This document shows positions 14,283-61,236 of a stretch of DNA of 64,000 nt, one piece after another (the first letter of the stretch is position 1; each line of letters begins with the position of its first letter). The notes under the pieces are model-generated. The model was not told the DNA's origin. It did no database searches and saw nothing but the letters and a program-made list of their open reading frames with translations. The translations under genes and the position numbers were made by a program. The DNA comes from Acidiphilium sp. PA. Lineage in GTDB: Bacteria; Pseudomonadota; Alphaproteobacteria; Acetobacterales; Acetobacteraceae. The stretch spans positions 310,001 through 374,000 of the forward strand of contig NZ_JAIMBY010000002.1 in assembly GCF_026191915.1 (NCBI RefSeq), given 5' to 3'.

Positions 14283-14288
14283 ACGATA

Positions 14289-14434
14289 GGAAGGGGAGGA
14301 AGGACTTCTTTTTTGTAAAAAAGAAGCAAAAAACTTTTGTTAATTTGGGGCACGGGTGGTTTCACCGGCATGGGCTCTATGAATCAAAGTTTTTTTGCTT
14401 CTTTTTGTTCACAGAAAGAAGTCTTCCCCTTTCC
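14289..14434. repeat. Bipartite A/T-rich inverted element, copy 2
   Basis: The left hairpin (CTTCTTTTTTGTAAAAAAGAAG near 14305-14326; two short arms around GT) is followed by AAAAAACTTTTGTTAAT. The centre reads GGGGCACGGG...TTCACCGGCA. The right, inverted part has CAAAGTTTTTTTGCTTC, TTTTTGTTCACAGAAAGAAG and a CTTCCCCTTTCC tail mirroring GGAAGGGGAGG on the left. It fills the gap between exonuclease and ligase and ends 14 bases before the ligase start, so it could attenuate ligase expression. The centre matches copy 3 in the same orientation. Confidence 0.8.
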
Positions 14435-29157: not shown

Positions 29158-29222
29158 CACTGTAACAATGTGTCAAAATTCATCGGTTGAAACCGGCGGG
29201 CGGGTCATTTAGGGCAGGAACG

Positions 29223-30320
29223 ATGAGAGAACCCGGCGCCCCGCACAGGCGTGCCGCAGACATGCGGCAGACGGCCATGAGCGTGATCGCGCTGACGAGC
29301 GCGCCCCTGGTGCTGCGCCTTTCGCTCGGGCGATGGCCCAGCGACAGCGAGCGGCAAGCGTTCCGGCGCGGCTTCACGGATCGCGCCGCACGATTGCCCG
29401 CACTGGTGCGGGCGCTCAGTTCAGTCGGCGATGTGTGCAATCTGATGGGCTACGCCATGCGGGCCCGACGCGGCACCGCGCTGCCACCGCTGTCGCCCCT
29501 GCAAGGTGACATCCTGACCGTCTGGACCGGACCCAAACTCGGGTTTCTGCACCTTGAGAAATGCGGCGGACTCGCCGTGATGCGCTGGCTCGCGCCGCAG
29601 TTTCACCCCGAACAGATCGACCCCGACCCGCTGCGCGCGGTGCCGCCGCAGAATTTCTATCGCGCACCCGCCGGCATCGGCCGTGAAAAAGCACGATACG
29701 CCTTGCTCTGGGGCCATTTCGATCTGCCGGCCCTCGAACGGATCGACCGCGACCGGTTCCTGTTCACCTTCCTGCGCGAACCCCGGGCACGGCTCGTCTC
29801 GATCTATCATTTCTGGCGGAGCGTGCGGCCGGATGTGATCGGCGATGTCGAAAACGACCCGTTGATGGGCGCGGCGCACCGGCACGACCTGCTCGGGTTC
29901 CTGCGCGATCCGGAACCCTCGCTCCGCGATTACCTCGATAATTTCTACACCAGACGATTGACCGGTCGCTACACGACCGGCGCCACAATCGATCCACTCA
30001 CGACCAATCCCGCAGACTCGCTCGCCGCCGCACAAAACGCACTCGCGCGGCTCGACTTCGTCGGCATCACCGAAACAATGGACGGCTCCGTGCACCAACT
30101 CGCCAGGCTGATCGGCGCCCGACCGCCCGACCGTCCCGTGCGCGGCAACATCACCGCCGAAAATCACATCGAATCGGTCGATGTTTTCCGCAAGGCCGAA
30201 CAAACCCCCATAACCCCCGAAATCCAGGCCGAACTCGACCGCCTCACCACACTCGATCGCACCCTCTACGCCAGAACCCTCGCACGACACCGCACCCCAC
30301 AGGCACTGGCCGCAGAGTGA
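29223..30320 (+). CDS. Sulfotransferase family protein
   Basis: The 365-residue product matches the PAPS-dependent sulfotransferase fold: a 5'-phosphosulfate loop FLHLEKCGGLAV (108-119) in place of the common PKTGGT, and the 3'-phosphate segment FTFLREPRARLVSIYHFW (183-200). It would add sulfate to a carbohydrate. It is divergent from ugd and its glycan partners, so sulfation of the surface polysaccharide is a fair inference. ATG 29223 has an AGGAA site. No signal peptide is evident, suggesting cytoplasmic action. Confidence 0.82.
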   Translation: MREPGAPHRRAADMRQTAMSVIALTSAPLVLRLSLGRWPSDSERQAFRRGFTDRAARLPALVRALSSVGDVCNLMGYAMRARRGTALPPLSPLQGDILTVWTGPKLGFLHLEKCGGLAVMRWLAPQFHPEQIDPDPLRAVPPQNFYRAPAGIGREKARYALLWGHFDLPALERIDRDRFLFTFLREPRARLVSIYHFWRSVRPDVIGDVENDPLMGAAHRHDLLGFLRDPEPSLRDYLDNFYTRRLTGRYTTGATIDPLTTNPADSLAAAQNALARLDFVGITETMDGSVHQLARLIGARPPDRPVRGNITAENHIESVDVFRKAEQTPITPEIQAELDRLTTLDRTLYARTLARHRTPQALAAE

Positions 30321-30351
30321 CCACCGGGGGTTGCGCGGGTGGGAGTGCTTC

Positions 30352-30558
30352 TAGCAAGCAAGGCGGGGGGCTTTGCCCCCTCGACCCCCACTAAGGGCTT
30401 AGCCCTTAGAACCCGCTAGTTTTAGGCAAGGGGAGGGCGCTGCCTCGGATTTTCCGTCGATCTGGCCTGTGTCGCCCTCCCCTTGCCTAAAACTAATGGA
30501 TTTTAAAGGCTCCGCCTTTAACGGGGTCCAGGGGCAGAGCCCCTGGCCCTGCTTGCTA
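30352..30558. repeat. Five-hairpin palindromic element, copy A
   Basis: The element starts 31 bases after the sulfotransferase stop. Ends TAGCAAGC (30352-30359) and GCTTGCTA (30551-30558) are complementary. Inside are hairpins GGGGGC-TTT-GCCCCC, CTAAGGGCTTAGCCCTTAG, a perfect 23-base-pair stem (30417-30439 with 30473-30495, 33-base loop), TTAAAGGC-TCC-GCCTTTAA, and CCAGGGGCAGAGCCCCTGG. The two halves are also complementary to each other. It accounts for most of the 323 bases without a gene here; nothing else is seen in the gap. Confidence 0.85.
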
Positions 30559-30643
30559 AAAAGTGCCCCCTACACGCGAAACCCGCCAGTGATCGCTTTG
30601 TGACCGTGCTTGCGGGGGTGGGTGATCTGGGCGACGATGGGGG

Positions 30644-38300: not shown

Positions 38301-39897
38301 GGTCGATCTGGCCGGGAGCCTGAGCGTGGGTGCGATCGGGCAGGCGGGGGCGGGGACGATTGCGGGCGGCAGGGCGGCGGTGAGCGGTGCGTTCAGCCTG
38401 GCTGGCGGTGCGGTGCTCGATTTGGCGGCGGCGACGCTGGCGGTGGGCAGCCTGACGGTTGCGAGCGGGGCGACGCTGAGCGGGAGCGGGGCGATCGGCG
38501 CGGCGGTTGCCGGGGTCGATCTGATCACGATCGATGCGGGCGGGGTGATCGAGGCGGTTGGGGGCAGTCTGACGCTGGGTGGCGCGCTGGTGGGCGGGGC
38601 AACCATCGCGGCGGGGGCGGCGCTCGATCTGGCGGGTGGCGCGAGCGGCGGCACGCTGAGTTTTGCGGGCGGCAGCCTGGCGGGAAGCGACGCGATGCTG
38701 GTGGTGAACAATGTCACCACGATGCAGGATGCGGTGGCGAATTTCGCGAGCGGCGATGTGATCGATCTGGTCGGGGTCGCGCCGTCGCTGGTGAGTGTTA
38801 CGAGCGGGTTGGTGCATGTCGGGACGCAGACCGAGTTCGCGCTGACGGCGGCGAGCGGTGCGCCGGCGGCGGCGGTGGCGGCGGACTCGCATGGCGGCAC
38901 CTACGTCAGCGCTGGCGGGCCGATGCCGTGTTTTGTGCGCGGCGCCCGGATCTTGACCGGGACGGGGTATCGCCCGGTGGAGACGCTGCGCCCGGGCGAC
39001 CGGGTGGTGACGCGGGACGGCGGGGCGCGGGCGATCGGGTGGATCGGGTGGCGGACGATCGATCTGGCCCGCGATCCTGCGGCGGCGGCGCTGCGCCCGG
39101 TGGTGATCGCGCCGGGGGCGTTTGGGCCGGGGCGGCCGGGACGGGCGCTGGCGATCTCGCCGCTGCACGCGATTTTCGTGCATGGTGTGCTGGTGCCGGC
39201 GGTTCTGCTGGTCAATGGCGCGACCATCACCCGCGATGAGCGGGCATTTGCGGTGACGTATTATCACGTCGAGCTCGATCGGCATGCGGTCGTGCTGGCC
39301 GAGGGGTTGGAGGCCGAGACCTATCGGGACAACGGGAATCGGGACCGGTTTCTGGCGCAATGCGGTACGCCGGGCTCACCTGTGGATGCGTGCGCGCCGC
39401 TCGTGGTGGGTGGGGCGTCGCTGCGGGAGGTGCGGGCGGATCTGCATCGCCGGGCGGGCGCGCTGGGGTATCGGGTGGTGCATGGCGCGGTTGCGGCGGT
39501 GCGGATCGAAGGGGTGGCGGCGCCGGTGCGGGCGCGGCGGCATGGTGGGCGGCTGATGTTCGATCTGCCGGTCAGGGCACGGCATGTGGCGCTGGATTGC
39601 CGGAGCGGGATGGCGGCGGAGACCGATCCGGCTTCGGAGGATCGGCGGCGGCTGGGGATCTGCGCCGGGACGCTGCGGGCGGATGGGCGGCGGGTTGCGG
39701 TGTGGCACGGCGGCGGATGGCATCCGCTCGCGCCGGGGGATCGGGGGTTGTGGAGCACGGGGCGGGCGATGGTGCATCTACCGCGGCCGGCACAGCGGAT
39801 CAGCATCGATCTGCTCGGCAGTGTGCCGCGGTGGGAGCGCGATCCGGCGTTTCTGGAGGGCGGGTTCCCGGGGAAGGAAAGGGCTTCTTTTTTGTAA
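35311..39897 (+). CDS. Giant beta-repeat surface protein with C-terminal Hint domain
   Basis: The 1,528-residue product is rich in Gly, Ala, Ser, Leu and short beta repeats (GAGTLIAGNFSF, VTLGSGLVSLGG and similar) typical of autotransporter passengers. A Hint_2 domain follows: Cys1207 in PCFVRGARILTG, VETLRPGDRVVTRDGG and ISPLHAIFVHG. No conventional signal peptide or outer-membrane barrel is seen, so the export route is unknown. Hint domains can self-cleave; the key first Cys is present. AGGAGTCACC precedes ATG 35311. The last residues (ERASFL) and stop are encoded by an A/T-rich repeat element. Confidence 0.85.
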   Translation: MSSTLQIIGPAAIDLIEGTTLSSLDLLPPGGLAVSDSNAAASISVTLSSGLGLSASSAGGATVIDAGGALTLSGGLAAVNAALASLILAGTAAGAATLAMTASDGTVSASTVIAVETLPDSAPAFVSPAASLALVAGVGASLGLTLADDPAVALGLLGAAPEELSVTLLASSGVLLLDPGVAPGIGIAGDATGALTLSATSTEFASLDAALAAVRLDAGSGGSLLYIASQTSGPLALTDTSGSLTYTTTGTIGASAESWAGQSIGWQTAAAWSGDATPGLGTNVTIGGTATVLGFGVAASLSIAQGAVVDIEAQIGVAAATLGSASTLTLGSAAVSVAGSLVLDAATVAIGAAGSLAAGAVSIGSAGALIDFGTAVLGGMAVDGAALLPGGALLEGPIALGSGGLIDFAGSLQADDAAPSVGLTAITLAAGATIAGAGTLIAGNFSFSDNIAGPGTIVASGPAAFEVLAGSIGGGVNFVIDPGASLEFGAVAPLYGVFNATPETVGGDATISFAPGASAGQDATGYASTLGEQGGVLVIDNPESFAGTILGFLPGERIVLSTLSPASVFNVTANSFEVEGSVIGNATQSMIVTIHASLAAGLTPVIETDAAGNAVIGLRAASAVLDLNDTAASLAVIDAVNGASTPIEGLGVLVPSNGSAGLVLTISASHGLIGDGGTTGSALTLSAASALALNTDMAALRYTAPASGTGDVLNFTGSAGLVGLSAAIAIDIGAAATLGFTGASGALFDAGSAWNGGVAPAVGDVAAFSSHQGAPLLVGGVGAASELSVRGAYDFAGALDLAGSAGSALAIGGGGFALFDANAVVTLGASAVIGDAGGAGTLGIAGTVYAAADTFVVGGVAGAAGSVVDITGNLLLAQALDLGGGAAATLDVTGNAGFAATTLGGTGALDSGVIRAGGAATLALGALDIVAGTLALDGGATVSAAAVTLGSGLVSLGGQSELVANFGLDITGGSLAIGAAAVASLSPGTLVIGASGVVDLAGSLSVGAIGQAGAGTIAGGRAAVSGAFSLAGGAVLDLAAATLAVGSLTVASGATLSGSGAIGAAVAGVDLITIDAGGVIEAVGGSLTLGGALVGGATIAAGAALDLAGGASGGTLSFAGGSLAGSDAMLVVNNVTTMQDAVANFASGDVIDLVGVAPSLVSVTSGLVHVGTQTEFALTAASGAPAAAVAADSHGGTYVSAGGPMPCFVRGARILTGTGYRPVETLRPGDRVVTRDGGARAIGWIGWRTIDLARDPAAAALRPVVIAPGAFGPGRPGRALAISPLHAIFVHGVLVPAVLLVNGATITRDERAFAVTYYHVELDRHAVVLAEGLEAETYRDNGNRDRFLAQCGTPGSPVDACAPLVVGGASLREVRADLHRRAGALGYRVVHGAVAAVRIEGVAAPVRARRHGGRLMFDLPVRARHVALDCRSGMAAETDPASEDRRRLGICAGTLRADGRRVAVWHGGGWHPLAPGDRGLWSTGRAMVHLPRPAQRISIDLLGSVPRWERDPAFLEGGFPGKERASFL

Positions 39898-40013
39898 AAG
39901 AGAAGCAAAAAACTTTCTGACTCTGGGGCACGGGCGTTTTCACCGGCACGGGCCCAAATCAACAAAGTTTTTTTTGCTTCTTTTTTTTCAAAAAAAAAGA
40001 AGACCTTGCTTCA
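39871..40013. repeat. Bipartite A/T-rich inverted element, copy 3
   Basis: Left arm GCTTCTTTTTTG-TAAAAGAGAAGC (about 39883-39906), then AAAAAACTTTCTGACTC, centre GGGGCACGGGCGTTTTCACC and GGCACGGGCCC, then the inverted part AACAAAGTTTTTTTTGCTTC, a T-run, and an A-run ending GAAGACC. The TAA stop of the Hint protein is inside the left hairpin loop. The element lies between two genes on the same strand. The centre orientation matches copy 2. Confidence 0.8.
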
Positions 40014-43230: not shown

Positions 43231-43394
43231 GGGAAAGGGAGGCAAGGAGAGTCTTCTTTTTTGTGAACAAAAAAGAAGCAAAAAAACTTTGTTAATCAGG
43301 GCTCCAGCCGGTTTTAGCGCCCGTGCTCCAGGGGCGGAAAGTTTTTTGCTTCTTTTTTACAAAAAAGAAGCGCTGCGCTTTGCTTTCGCTGCCC
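43231..43394. repeat. Bipartite A/T-rich inverted element, copy 4
   Basis: The left hairpin is CTTCTTTTTTGTGAACAAAA with AAGAAGC after it, then AAAAAAACTTTGTTAAT. The right hairpin is GCTTCTTTTTT (43349-43359 region), AC, AAAAAAGAAGC. The centre is in the reverse direction relative to copies 2 and 3: its complement reads GGAGCACGGGCG. It lies between divergent genes (carbonic anhydrase and the M20 hydrolase), so it cannot simply be a terminator. It accounts for most of the 310-base gap; no other feature is seen there. Confidence 0.8.
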
Positions 43395-52500: not shown

Positions 52501-52526
52501 GTGACGCCGGAGGACGGGGGCCTGCG

Positions 52527-52739
52527 CCTGGTAGAAGAAGGCCAAGGGGCTCTGCCCCCTGGACCCCTGCTAAGGGCGGAGCCCTTAGAACCCGCTAGCT
52601 TTAGGAATGGGGAGGGCGGTCGCGGGATTGGGCGCGGCGATTGCCGGGACGCCCTCCCCATTCCTAAAACTAATGGATTCCAAAGGTTTAGCCTTTGGCG
52701 GGGTCCAGGGGCAGAGCCCCTGGCCTTCCTTCTGCCAGG
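52527..52739. repeat. Five-hairpin palindromic element, copy B
   Basis: Ends CCTGGTAGAAGAAGGCC (52527-52543) and GGCCTTCCTTCTGCCAGG (52722-52739) are complementary. The internal hairpins follow the same order as copy A: GGGGC-TCT-GCCCC, CTAAGGGC-GGA-GCCCTTAG, a 23-position stem (52596-52618 with 52650-52672, 22 pairs, 31-base loop), CCAAAGG-TTTAG-CCTTTGG, and CCAGGGGCAGAGCCCCTGG. It begins 22 bases from the pepA stop and ends 27 bases from the GT61 start. Confidence 0.85.
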
Positions 52740-52761
52740 ACTCACCCCCCGTCCTTTGCGA

Positions 52762-54273
52762 TTACTGTTCGTAGTGGGCGGCAACGAGGCGATCGAGCAG
52801 GCGGACGCCGTAGCCGGTGGCGCCTTTGGGTGCGACGGCGCCGTCTTTGCTGGCCCAGGCCATGCCGGCGATATCGAGATGAGCCCAGGGGGTTTTATTG
52901 ACGAAGCGTTGCAGGAACTGGGCGGCGGTGACGGCGCCGCCGGCACGGCCGTTGCCGAGGTTTTTCATGTCCGCGATGTCGCAGTTGATCTGCTTGTCGT
53001 AGGCTTCGCCGAGCGGCATGCGCCATACGGTTTCGCCGGTGTAGGTGCCGGCTTCGATCAGGCGGTTTGCAAGATCGTCGTTATTGGCGAACAGTCCGGC
53101 GTTTTCGTGACCGAGGGCGACGATGATGGCGCCGGTGAGGGTGGCGAGGTCGACCATGAAGCGCGGTTTGAAGCGATTTTGGGCGTACCAGAGCACATCG
53201 GCCAGGACGAGGCGGCCTTCGGCGTCGGTGTTGAGGACTTCGATGGTCTGGCCGGAGGCGGATTTGACGATATCGCCCGGGCGTTGGGCAGTGCCTGAGG
53301 GCATGTTTTCGACCAGCCCGACCAGGCCGACGGCATCGACGCGGGCTTTACGGCCGGCGAGGGCGGCCATCAGGCCGATGACGGTGCCGGCGCCTGCCAT
53401 GTCCCATTTCATGTCTTCCATGCCGGCGGCGGGTTTGATGGAGATGCCACCAGTATCGAAGGTGACGCCTTTGCCGACGAAGACGACCGGGTCTTTGGGG
53501 ATGGGTTTGGTTTTTTTGCCGGATTTGCCGGTGGGTTCGGGTTCGGAGGCGCCGAGCCATTGCATGACGACCATGCGAGGTTCGCAGGCGCTACCCATGG
53601 CGACGCCGAGCAGGGCGCCGAAGCCGAGTTTTTCCATATCGCGCCGGTCGAAGATTTCGACCTTGACGCCAAGGGATTTGAGCGATTTGGCGCGATCGGC
53701 CATTTCCTCGGGGGTGAGTATGTTGGCGGGCTCGGAGACCAGGTCGCGCGTGAGTTCGACACCGGCGGCGAGGGCGGCGAGCGGGGCGTAGGCGGTGCGG
53801 GCGGCGGCGGAATCGTCGGACAGGATGGTGAGATCGGCCAGTTTGGGCTTTTGTTCCTCTTTCAGCGTGGTGCGGTATTTATCGAACCGGTAGGTGCGCA
53901 GACGGGCACCGAGGGCGGCGTGGGCGAGCATGGGGGCGGCGAGGCCATCGCCGGCGATGGCGGCGGTTTCGTGTTTCATGAGCGCGGCCACGGCAGTGGC
54001 GCCGGCGGTTTCGGCGTGGTGGGCGGTCAGTTCGTCGGATTTGCCGATACCGATGGCGACGACGCGGTCGAGCCCGGCGCCGGGTGCGAGCAGGACGGCG
54101 GACTGGCCGCGCTTGCCCTTGAAGTCGGCGGCGGCGAGGGCGCGGGTGAAGCCGCCGGCGAGCGCGGCATCGAGCGCAGCGGCGAGGCCGGTATGGGCTT
54201 CGTCCTCACCGAGCAGCAGTGCCAGGGCACCGGATTTCGGGAGCTCCATGCGGGCAAATGCGATATCGATCAT
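52762..54273 (-). CDS. pepA: Leucyl aminopeptidase (M17)
   Basis: The 503-residue di-metal aminopeptidase has the signature NTDAEGRLVLAD (348-359) with ligands Lys268, Asp273, Asp291, Asp350 and Glu352; spacing is that of E. coli PepA (270, 275, 293, 352, 354). It removes N-terminal residues from peptides; PepA homologues may also bind DNA. The N-terminal domain is normal. It is divergent from cysQ, with 93 bases between. Confidence 0.96.
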   Translation of the reverse strand: MIDIAFARMELPKSGALALLLGEDEAHTGLAAALDAALAGGFTRALAAADFKGKRGQSAVLLAPGAGLDRVVAIGIGKSDELTAHHAETAGATAVAALMKHETAAIAGDGLAAPMLAHAALGARLRTYRFDKYRTTLKEEQKPKLADLTILSDDSAAARTAYAPLAALAAGVELTRDLVSEPANILTPEEMADRAKSLKSLGVKVEIFDRRDMEKLGFGALLGVAMGSACEPRMVVMQWLGASEPEPTGKSGKKTKPIPKDPVVFVGKGVTFDTGGISIKPAAGMEDMKWDMAGAGTVIGLMAALAGRKARVDAVGLVGLVENMPSGTAQRPGDIVKSASGQTIEVLNTDAEGRLVLADVLWYAQNRFKPRFMVDLATLTGAIIVALGHENAGLFANNDDLANRLIEAGTYTGETVWRMPLGEAYDKQINCDIADMKNLGNGRAGGAVTAAQFLQRFVNKTPWAHLDIAGMAWASKDGAVAPKGATGYGVRLLDRLVAAHYEQ

Positions 54274-61085: not shown

Positions 61086-61236
61086 AAGGAAGGAGAGTCT
61101 TCCTTTTTGTGAACAAAAAAGAAGCAAAAAAACTTCGTTGATTGGGGGCCGTGCCGTTTCAAACGCCCATACCGCCGGGATAGAAAGTTTTTTGGTTCTT
61201 TTTTTCAAAGAAGAACGGCTTGTTTCCTCTTCCCCT
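61086..61236. repeat. Bipartite A/T-rich inverted element, copy 5
   Basis: Left arm TCTTCCTTTTTGTGAACAAAA then AAGAAGCAAAAAAACTTCG; right arm GTTTTTTGGTTCTTTTTTTC and AAAGAAGAACGG. Its centre is reversed relative to copies 2 and 3: the complement reads GGTATGGGCGTTTGAAAC. The right arm uses the GGTTC/GAAC pair variant. It lies between the GH42-like gene and metK. Confidence 0.75.

Follow-up and report, generated by a model that had tools for sequence, protein, structure and literature searches.

Compensated changes at paired positions are the usual proof that a fold of RNA or DNA is under selection. The window, a 64,000-nucleotide stretch of one contig of Acidiphilium sp. PA, holds two copies of a palindromic element whose hairpins differ from each other in just this manner, and an earlier note, made from the sequence of the window, had concluded that the folded form is selected. 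The question raised by this locus is whether the matching halves of the element are indeed kept by a need to fold, or whether they are a product of the way in which such DNA moves and is copied. Here, we describe the architecture, distribution, covariation and flanking DNA of this element in the window's own genome (G000), in a sister species (G006), in a related species (G011), and across the family. We favor, at a probability of roughly 0.55, the view that it is a dispersed, non-coding, intergenic and, in the broad sense, MITE-like mobile palindromic repeat of about 200 bp that has been remodeled by template switching.

Two copies of a five-hairpin element in the window

Copies A (30352-30558) and B (52527-52739) lie where the earlier note had placed them, and in each of them five local hairpins follow one another in a common order. 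The paired differences that it quoted were found as described: in the central stem a C-G pair of copy A is A-T in copy B and an A-T pair is T-A, and in the fourth stem TTAAAGG/CCTTTAA becomes CCAAAGG/CCTTTGG. The close spacing to stop codons is also correct. Copy A begins 31 nt past the stop of a plus-strand open reading frame ending at 30320, and the end of copy B is 22 nt from the stop, at 52762, of a minus-strand gene that we take, from its protein sequence, to be pepA; the encoded protein is 97% identical to PepA of A. rubrum ATCC 35905. The outer ends, presented as differing yet self-complementary, are indeed self-complementary within each copy, but they are not one shared sequence; rather, they are locus-specific inverted repeats that reach about 50 nt into the flanks. 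The features of both copies and the adjoining genes are as follows.

29187..30320, plus strand: open reading frame of 377 aa, stop 31 nt before copy A
30326..30355, plus strand: copy A, left outer arm, locus-specific; complementarity of its own left and right flanks gives a local score of 15 (cross-copy mean 7.8, 99th percentile 14)
30364..30383, plus strand: copy A, hairpin h1, CGGGGGGC-TTT-GCCCCCTCG, one bulge; two-sided change in only 1 of 8 scored pairs
30391..30409, plus strand: copy A, hairpin h2, CTAAGGGC-TTA-GCCCTTAG; two-sided change in 6 of 8 pairs (66 copies), 99.2% of cells paired
30419..30493, plus strand: copy A, central stem (30419-30439 / 30473-30493); 15 of 21 pairs two-sided, 96.8% of cells paired
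30440-30472, plus strand: copy A, central loop, 33 nt; occurs in both orientations among copies
30503..30521, plus strand: copy A, hairpin h4, TTAAAGGC-TCC-GCCTTTAA; two-sided change in 6 of 8 pairs, 99.8% of cells paired
30528..30546, plus strand: copy A, hairpin h5, CCAGGGGC-AGA-GCCCCTGG; two-sided change in 2 of 8 pairs, 99.6% of cells paired
30547..30575, plus strand: copy A, right outer arm, locus-specific, from flank complementarity
52511..52541, plus strand: copy B, left outer arm, inverted-repeat arm; own-flank score 14
52542..52562, plus strand: copy B, hairpin h1, from sequence and alignment
52570..52588, plus strand: copy B, hairpin h2, from sequence and alignment
52598..52670, plus strand: copy B, central stem (52598-52618 / 52650-52670) around a loop of its own, 52619-52649
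52680..52698, plus strand: copy B, hairpin h4, from sequence and alignment
52705..52723, plus strand: copy B, hairpin h5, from sequence and alignment
52724..52755, plus strand: copy B, right outer arm, inverted-repeat arm, from flank complementarity
52762..54273, minus strand: leucyl aminopeptidase-like gene, stop 22 nt from copy B

Folded as single-stranded DNA, each copy does better than all of its 200 dinucleotide shuffles (z = -9.9 for copy A and -10.7 for copy B). A known Rfam RNA family was considered and rejected, as the window has no match at the gathering cut-off; five weak matches for 30300-30620, the region of copy A, all score far below it. The sequence of copy A has no visible run of T residues after its outer stem and, by eye, no GTAG or CGTC tag at its ends. 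No match to copy A was obtained from plasmid and phage records, a set that may lack near relatives.

Architecture and exchangeable modules

Forty copies were read and 66 sequences, from nine genomes of the genus, were aligned, and they conform to a single plan: h1-ACCCC-h2-AACCC/AATCC-core-GGATT/GGGTT-h4-GGGGT-h5. The repeat is about 200 bp long, non-coding, and intergenic by a crude call of open reading frames. Its inverted halves are internal modules, and the outermost arms are not common to the copies. The linkers are largely complementary around h2, the core and h4, an arrangement that would give two stacked four-way junctions closed by the outer stem; because the linkers hardly covary, this joint drawing rests on their complementarity.

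Parts of the repeat also occur in other contexts. The two-hairpin unit surrounds different cores at one locus of the same genus (L048) and at two loci of other genera (L051 and L052), has almost no core at L058 and L059, and stands alone, as half a repeat, at L053, L054, L055 and L060. The core of L052, in genome G026, is perfectly palindromic over arms that exceed 50 bp; this is unusual in a stable chromosome and could be an assembly error. The loops of h2, h4 and h5, and sometimes that of h1, may hold further, nested hairpins. The idea that a nested module of about 55 nt is an independent mobile hairpin was not upheld: among loci drawn from the best 40 candidates per genome, 17 of 19 have it within the loop of h1 or h5 of the repeat or in a remnant of the latter, the remaining two being off centre and uninformative.

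Copy number and distribution

At least 46 copies are present in the window's own genome of 4.54 Mb. A BLAST search with copy A returned at least 91 matches, counting both strands, that were merged by hand into at least 40 distinct places; six further copies were seen as sequence (C56:13600, C45:88349, C1:385102, C1:264334, C86:131991 and C1:322728), and the places at C12:461300 and C1:764834 are known solely as matches to the two-hairpin unit. Contig C86 of this genome (151 kb), picked after the list had been seen, holds nine of the 40 places where 1.3 would be expected by length, and the matches listed for the main contig of G011 also appear, by eye, to be bunched.

A covariance model of the two-hairpin unit, run against this genome and its relatives, showed the unit to be spread across the family. 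With scoring confined to the 20 or 29 best candidates of each genome, it was matched in at least 135 of 200 genomes of the family, which represent at least 67 of its 96 genera. Across the class, again among the best candidates per genome, it was matched in at least three of 288 genomes, namely the window's own and two from one other family. Six loci were read in the genomes of that other family, and five of them have the same four-hairpin order around an unrelated middle; the sixth is a half. In genome G356 many of the listed unit matches are found no more than 100 bases from a contig start, as though the repeat were frequent enough to break the assembly. The earlier note could not name the architecture, which agrees both with the Rfam result and with the open-access literature, in which, at partial coverage, no description of such a repeat was found.

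Chance or an artefact of assembly might be invoked for any element of this kind, since palindromes in general make assembly difficult. Such an origin is scarcely credible here: the folds have z-scores near -10, the copies sit within long contigs in several genomes that were assembled separately, and their number and spread speak against it.

Covariation of the local hairpins

Of 74 sequences located, those with truncated ends or nested modules, nine in all, were set aside; the addition of copy B gave the alignment of 66. Within the local hairpins, 94.6% of cells are paired and 15 of 32 pairs have changed on both sides; there are 66 two-sided cells, against 9.0 in shuffled alignments and 1-22 when partners are slid by one to three columns. 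Hairpins h2, h4 and h5 are each more than 99% paired, and in them, as in the central stem, two-sided changes lie far above the controls. Covariation is weak in h1, which is 79.6% paired and has one two-sided pair; its low pairing is due in part to the innermost pair (columns 17 and 22), which was set one step too deep and never pairs. The linkers and core stem are together 91.1% paired, and 19 of their 35 pairs are two-sided (64 cells, against 16.7 shuffled and 7-30 with slid partners). These pairs are divided between the core stem (15 of 21) and the linkers (4 of 14), two linker segments being paired in about 75% of cells. Across the family, two-sided changes are found at 12 of 16 pairs in 23 two-hairpin units, which remained after two of the 25 located had been left out.

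Pairing from one end of the repeat to the other, h1 with h5 and h2 with h4, shows no covariation, with 12 two-sided cells where shuffled alignments give 18.0. One long end-to-end palindrome was therefore rejected as the conserved fold, though single sequences do fold in this way. The shared ancestry of the two halves is visible in their sequences, but the halves have since diverged, each hairpin on its own.

By the terms of the earlier note, its inference of selection would have been refuted had other copies lacked compensated changes, and the counts given above, 66 against 9.0 and 64 against 16.7, show that such changes are present. Thus, the compensated changes are real and numerous. The step from these changes to selection is insecure, given the changes in flanking DNA, the flips, the scarcity of intermediates and the possibility of template switching, although selection may act as well. 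When cells were tallied over the central stem and h2, h4 and h5, 125 proved two-sided, 14 had a one-sided change that left a standard pair, and 52 were unpaired, 18 of them at the loop-adjacent pair. Cells count sequences and not events, and many copies are related. Since related sequences may exceed shuffles even where there is no structure, the covariation figures show that the arms change jointly, not what causes them to do so.

Position relative to genes

By the crude call of open reading frames, a gene 3' end borders 36 of the 40 copies on at least one side. Fifteen lie between converging genes, 12 and 7 are in the two tandem classes, two follow a plus-strand gene without a called neighbor, and four lie between diverging genes. 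This position behind stop codons, together with the strong local covariation and the more than 99% pairing of h2, h4 and h5, is what would be expected of a selected structural element, that is, a two-way 3' end device such as a terminator, a transcription barrier or an mRNA stabilizer, in which covariation reflects selection on an RNA or cruciform fold. The outer stem of copy A, as noted, is not followed by a T-run. The repeats at L241 and L037b are directly preceded by a stem that resembles a terminator and has a T-run, so that the repeat is not simply the terminator of its gene. We regard a selected 3' end device as a possible but rather unlikely explanation of the family as a whole.

Occupied, empty and eroded sites

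All 16 copies of G000 for which both flanks lay within the fetched stretches of G006 are filled in G006 too, a figure that is biased upwards because many of these stretches were chosen for holding a copy. The sharing of these sites between the two species indicates that many copies are old. In 7 of the 15 orthologous pairs that could be scored, the two sister species have the halves in opposite orientation, and in three of the 15 the loop is inverted as well.

Other sites are eroded. The G006 orthologue of copy A (L258) is reduced to h1 and a nested module, arms are left behind at L124b, and deletions, degenerate remnants or gaps are found elsewhere. The site of copy B is occupied in the window; A. 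rubrum has a truncated copy there, and the remaining 20 of the 21 loci examined (of 80 fetched) have no such repeat within 260 nt of the stop. At most sites insertion and deletion are not told apart. The occurrence of remnants and losses argues against a selected 3' end device.

Sites that lack the repeat in one species suggest a further explanation for its outer stem. Where G006 has a copy on contig C44, G000 is without one and has instead, where the two stops converge, a hairpin of 10-12 bp. G011 is without the repeat at the sites of both L011 and L032; the first has a short hairpin, GTCAATCCGGG...CCCGGTTGAC, and at the second no clear hairpin was seen by eye. The two hairpins would be accounted for if the repeat had inserted into the loop of a pre-existing terminator-like hairpin, the locus-specific outer stem being the old hairpin of the host, and the YPAL element is reported to choose targets that have dyad symmetry or lie beside it (PMC2229807). 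The L032 site does not conform to this expectation. Moreover, the hairpins at empty sites could be either pre-insertion hairpins or deletion scars, the latter being illustrated by the arms that remain at L124b.

Flanking arms

The two flanks of a given copy are complementary to each other, with a mean local score of 18.6 against 7.8 for flanks mixed between copies, and 35 of 39 own pairs rank first (L035, in which one half is deleted, was omitted from the 40 copies). A score of at least 14, the 99th percentile of mixed pairs, is reached by 31 of 39 repeat flanks. Repeat-free convergent junctions, scored at their best centre, reach it in 6 of 34 cases, with a median of 9, and shuffled junctions in none of 34; all centres were tried in 6-nt steps (a midpoint-only version gave 2 of 34), and the control uses crude calls of open reading frames, mixes stretches of the two sister species and counts some junctions twice. 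Within the first 50 nt, complementarity between own flanks declines from 0.80 to 0.73, where mixed flanks give 0.66-0.70; further out it is at the control level. No target-site duplication was found around the 39 copies, direct repeats between own flanks averaging 4.8 nt and those between mixed flanks 4.9 nt.

Inverted repeats comparable to the flanking arms thus exist at six of the 34 repeat-free convergent junctions and in none of the shuffled ones, a result that, like the two filled-versus-empty comparisons, also fits insertion into hairpins. Against such insertion stand the 31 of 39 repeat flanks that attain a comparable score and the symmetry itself, which extends for about 50 nt, decays outwards and at L024 runs into a coding end. 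We consider a pre-existing hairpin unlikely as the source of the outer stem. As most repeat-free junctions lack such hairpins, we prefer scars or outward growth as the explanation of the empty-site hairpins, though this is unproven.

The flanking arms also change jointly. Among 792 columns from 14 pairs of G000 and G006 arms (L006 and L035 omitted), 24 have changed on both arms, against 5.8 expected if the arms were independent; ten of these are exact swaps between arms and eight are compensated, six of the eight coming from one site, L009. That DNA outside the repeat undergoes two-sided change is a further argument against a selected device. At L024, four differences between G000 and G006 surround the stop codon of one gene, and all of them make the G000 arm match the opposite arm; the end of this gene has apparently been overwritten by that of its neighbor, or else the match has been lost in G006. 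When L024 is set beside L070 and L122, the stop-codon region matches the opposite arm of the palindrome in G000 and not in G006.

Proposed remodeling by template switching

The joint changes of the arms and the flips of halves and loops match the published signature of template switching, which is homogenization of arms with inversion of spacers. Template switching between inverted-repeat arms in yeast is reported to produce both outcomes with no adaptive explanation being required (PMC8604942), and template-switch mutations are reported at quasipalindromes in Escherichia coli (PMC7202029). On the reading that we favor, copies of the repeat would arrive by mobilization, probably structure-directed, and would settle behind stop codons because such places tolerate DNA. 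Template switching would then remodel them when replication passes the folded arms, copying one arm onto the other, flipping spacers and extending the mirror symmetry into neighboring DNA. The matched halves are perhaps kept mostly by copying errors and not by a need to fold, and a service to the host, for example as a two-way barrier at 3' ends, would be secondary. The one transposase family searched for, Y1_Tnp, is without a match in this genome, although 5 of 14 control genomes were positive. This result counts against the favored reading, as do the lack of target duplications and the lack of plasmid or phage matches to copy A. Since covariation is here accompanied by inversions and by two-sided changes in the flanks, nature offers in this family a good test of how far mutation by itself can produce covariation.

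A second family of palindromes at shared junctions

At three shared junctions, an AT-rich palindrome unrelated in sequence occupies the place of the GC-rich repeat. It is found in G011 at the L024 and L038 junctions, where G000 has the GC-rich repeat, and in G000 at the L127b junction, where G006 has the GC-rich repeat. The L038 junction of G000, which is L233 in G011, lies directly after a tRNA-like 3' end; G000 and G006 have the GC-rich repeat there, and G011 the AT-rich palindrome. With one AT-rich copy as query, at least 76, 71 and 70 matches, counting both strands, were obtained in G000, G006 and G011, respectively, among the best 40 of 166-276 candidates. The window itself has AT-rich palindromic repeats at 14287-14427 and 39872-39996 and similar ones near 2630-2670, 43250-43375 and 61095-61220. 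Their plan is a hairpin, a CAAAAAACTTT linker, a core, AAAGTTTTTTG and a second hairpin, and one near 2650 is seemingly a half. These repeats belong to a second, very abundant Acidiphilium family.

Replacement of the repeat by an unrelated palindrome, as if shape mattered, is a point in favor of a selected structural element. The same exchange, if general, would point to shape-directed mobility. The abundance of the AT-rich family means that the three junctions may in part reflect a small number of tolerant places. A bolder proposal, which we hold to be improbable, is that the GC-rich family and the more abundant-looking AT-rich one are both moved or exchanged at gene 3' ends by recognition of a folded shape, a stacked or single four-way junction, rather than of a sequence, and can replace each other, arm copying during replication then writing the symmetry into the neighboring chromosome.

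Comparison with known repeats

Intergenic mosaics of palindromic modules are familiar in Alphaproteobacteria from the rhizobial RIME and ABC mosaic elements. REP and BIME sequences, and REPINs with their RAYT transposases, resemble the Acidiphilium repeat in being dispersed extragenic palindromes with many copies and no coding capacity. Reviews and surveys, accessible in part, cover these and ERIC, YPAL, RUP, CIR and other elements (PMC2229807, PMC10969869, PMC2267715, PMC3733652, PMC1525189). REP sequences are described as 20-40 bp long with a GTAG or CGTC tag (PMC3733652), whereas the Acidiphilium repeat is about 200 bp. Its size, the absence of such a tag at the ends of copy A and the absence of a Y1_Tnp match in the genome led us to reject membership in the REP/RAYT group.

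The ERIC element is likewise an intergenic palindrome, of 127 bp, that in Yersinia is found at gene 3' ends and has shorter variants; in the portions available it is predicted to form one long stem-loop (PMC10969869, PMC2267715), whereas here it is the local hairpins that covary and not the end-to-end pairing. A single long stem-loop of the ERIC type was rejected on the same end-to-end counts, 12 cells against 18.0 shuffled. ERIC also has TA ends and target duplications (PMC2229807, in part). The CIR elements of Caulobacter and Brucella, compared by description only, are alphaproteobacterial and intergenic, and their RNA, with two hairpin arms and a linker, resembles one half-unit of the present repeat; they differ in carrying a GANTC motif at the loop (PMC2229807, in part).

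The nearest of these elements in size, composition and association with dyad symmetry is YPAL, the RU-2 repeat of Yersinia. It is 168 bp long, intergenic, palindromic and not A+T-rich, and it lacks TA ends. YPAL differs in making target duplications of 3-26 bp, of which none was seen for the Acidiphilium repeat, and the accessible part of its description mentions no two-junction plan, exchange of cores or inversion (PMC2229807). Like MITEs, the Acidiphilium repeat is small and non-coding and has many dispersed intergenic copies (about 200 bp, at least 46 copies), and the 39 of 40 copies scored lack the target-site duplication of a MITE; it is MITE-like but not a proven MITE. Because the lack of target duplications, the fold into local hairpins and the exchangeable cores set it apart from YPAL, we place it among the intergenic palindromic repeats as a MITE-like element.
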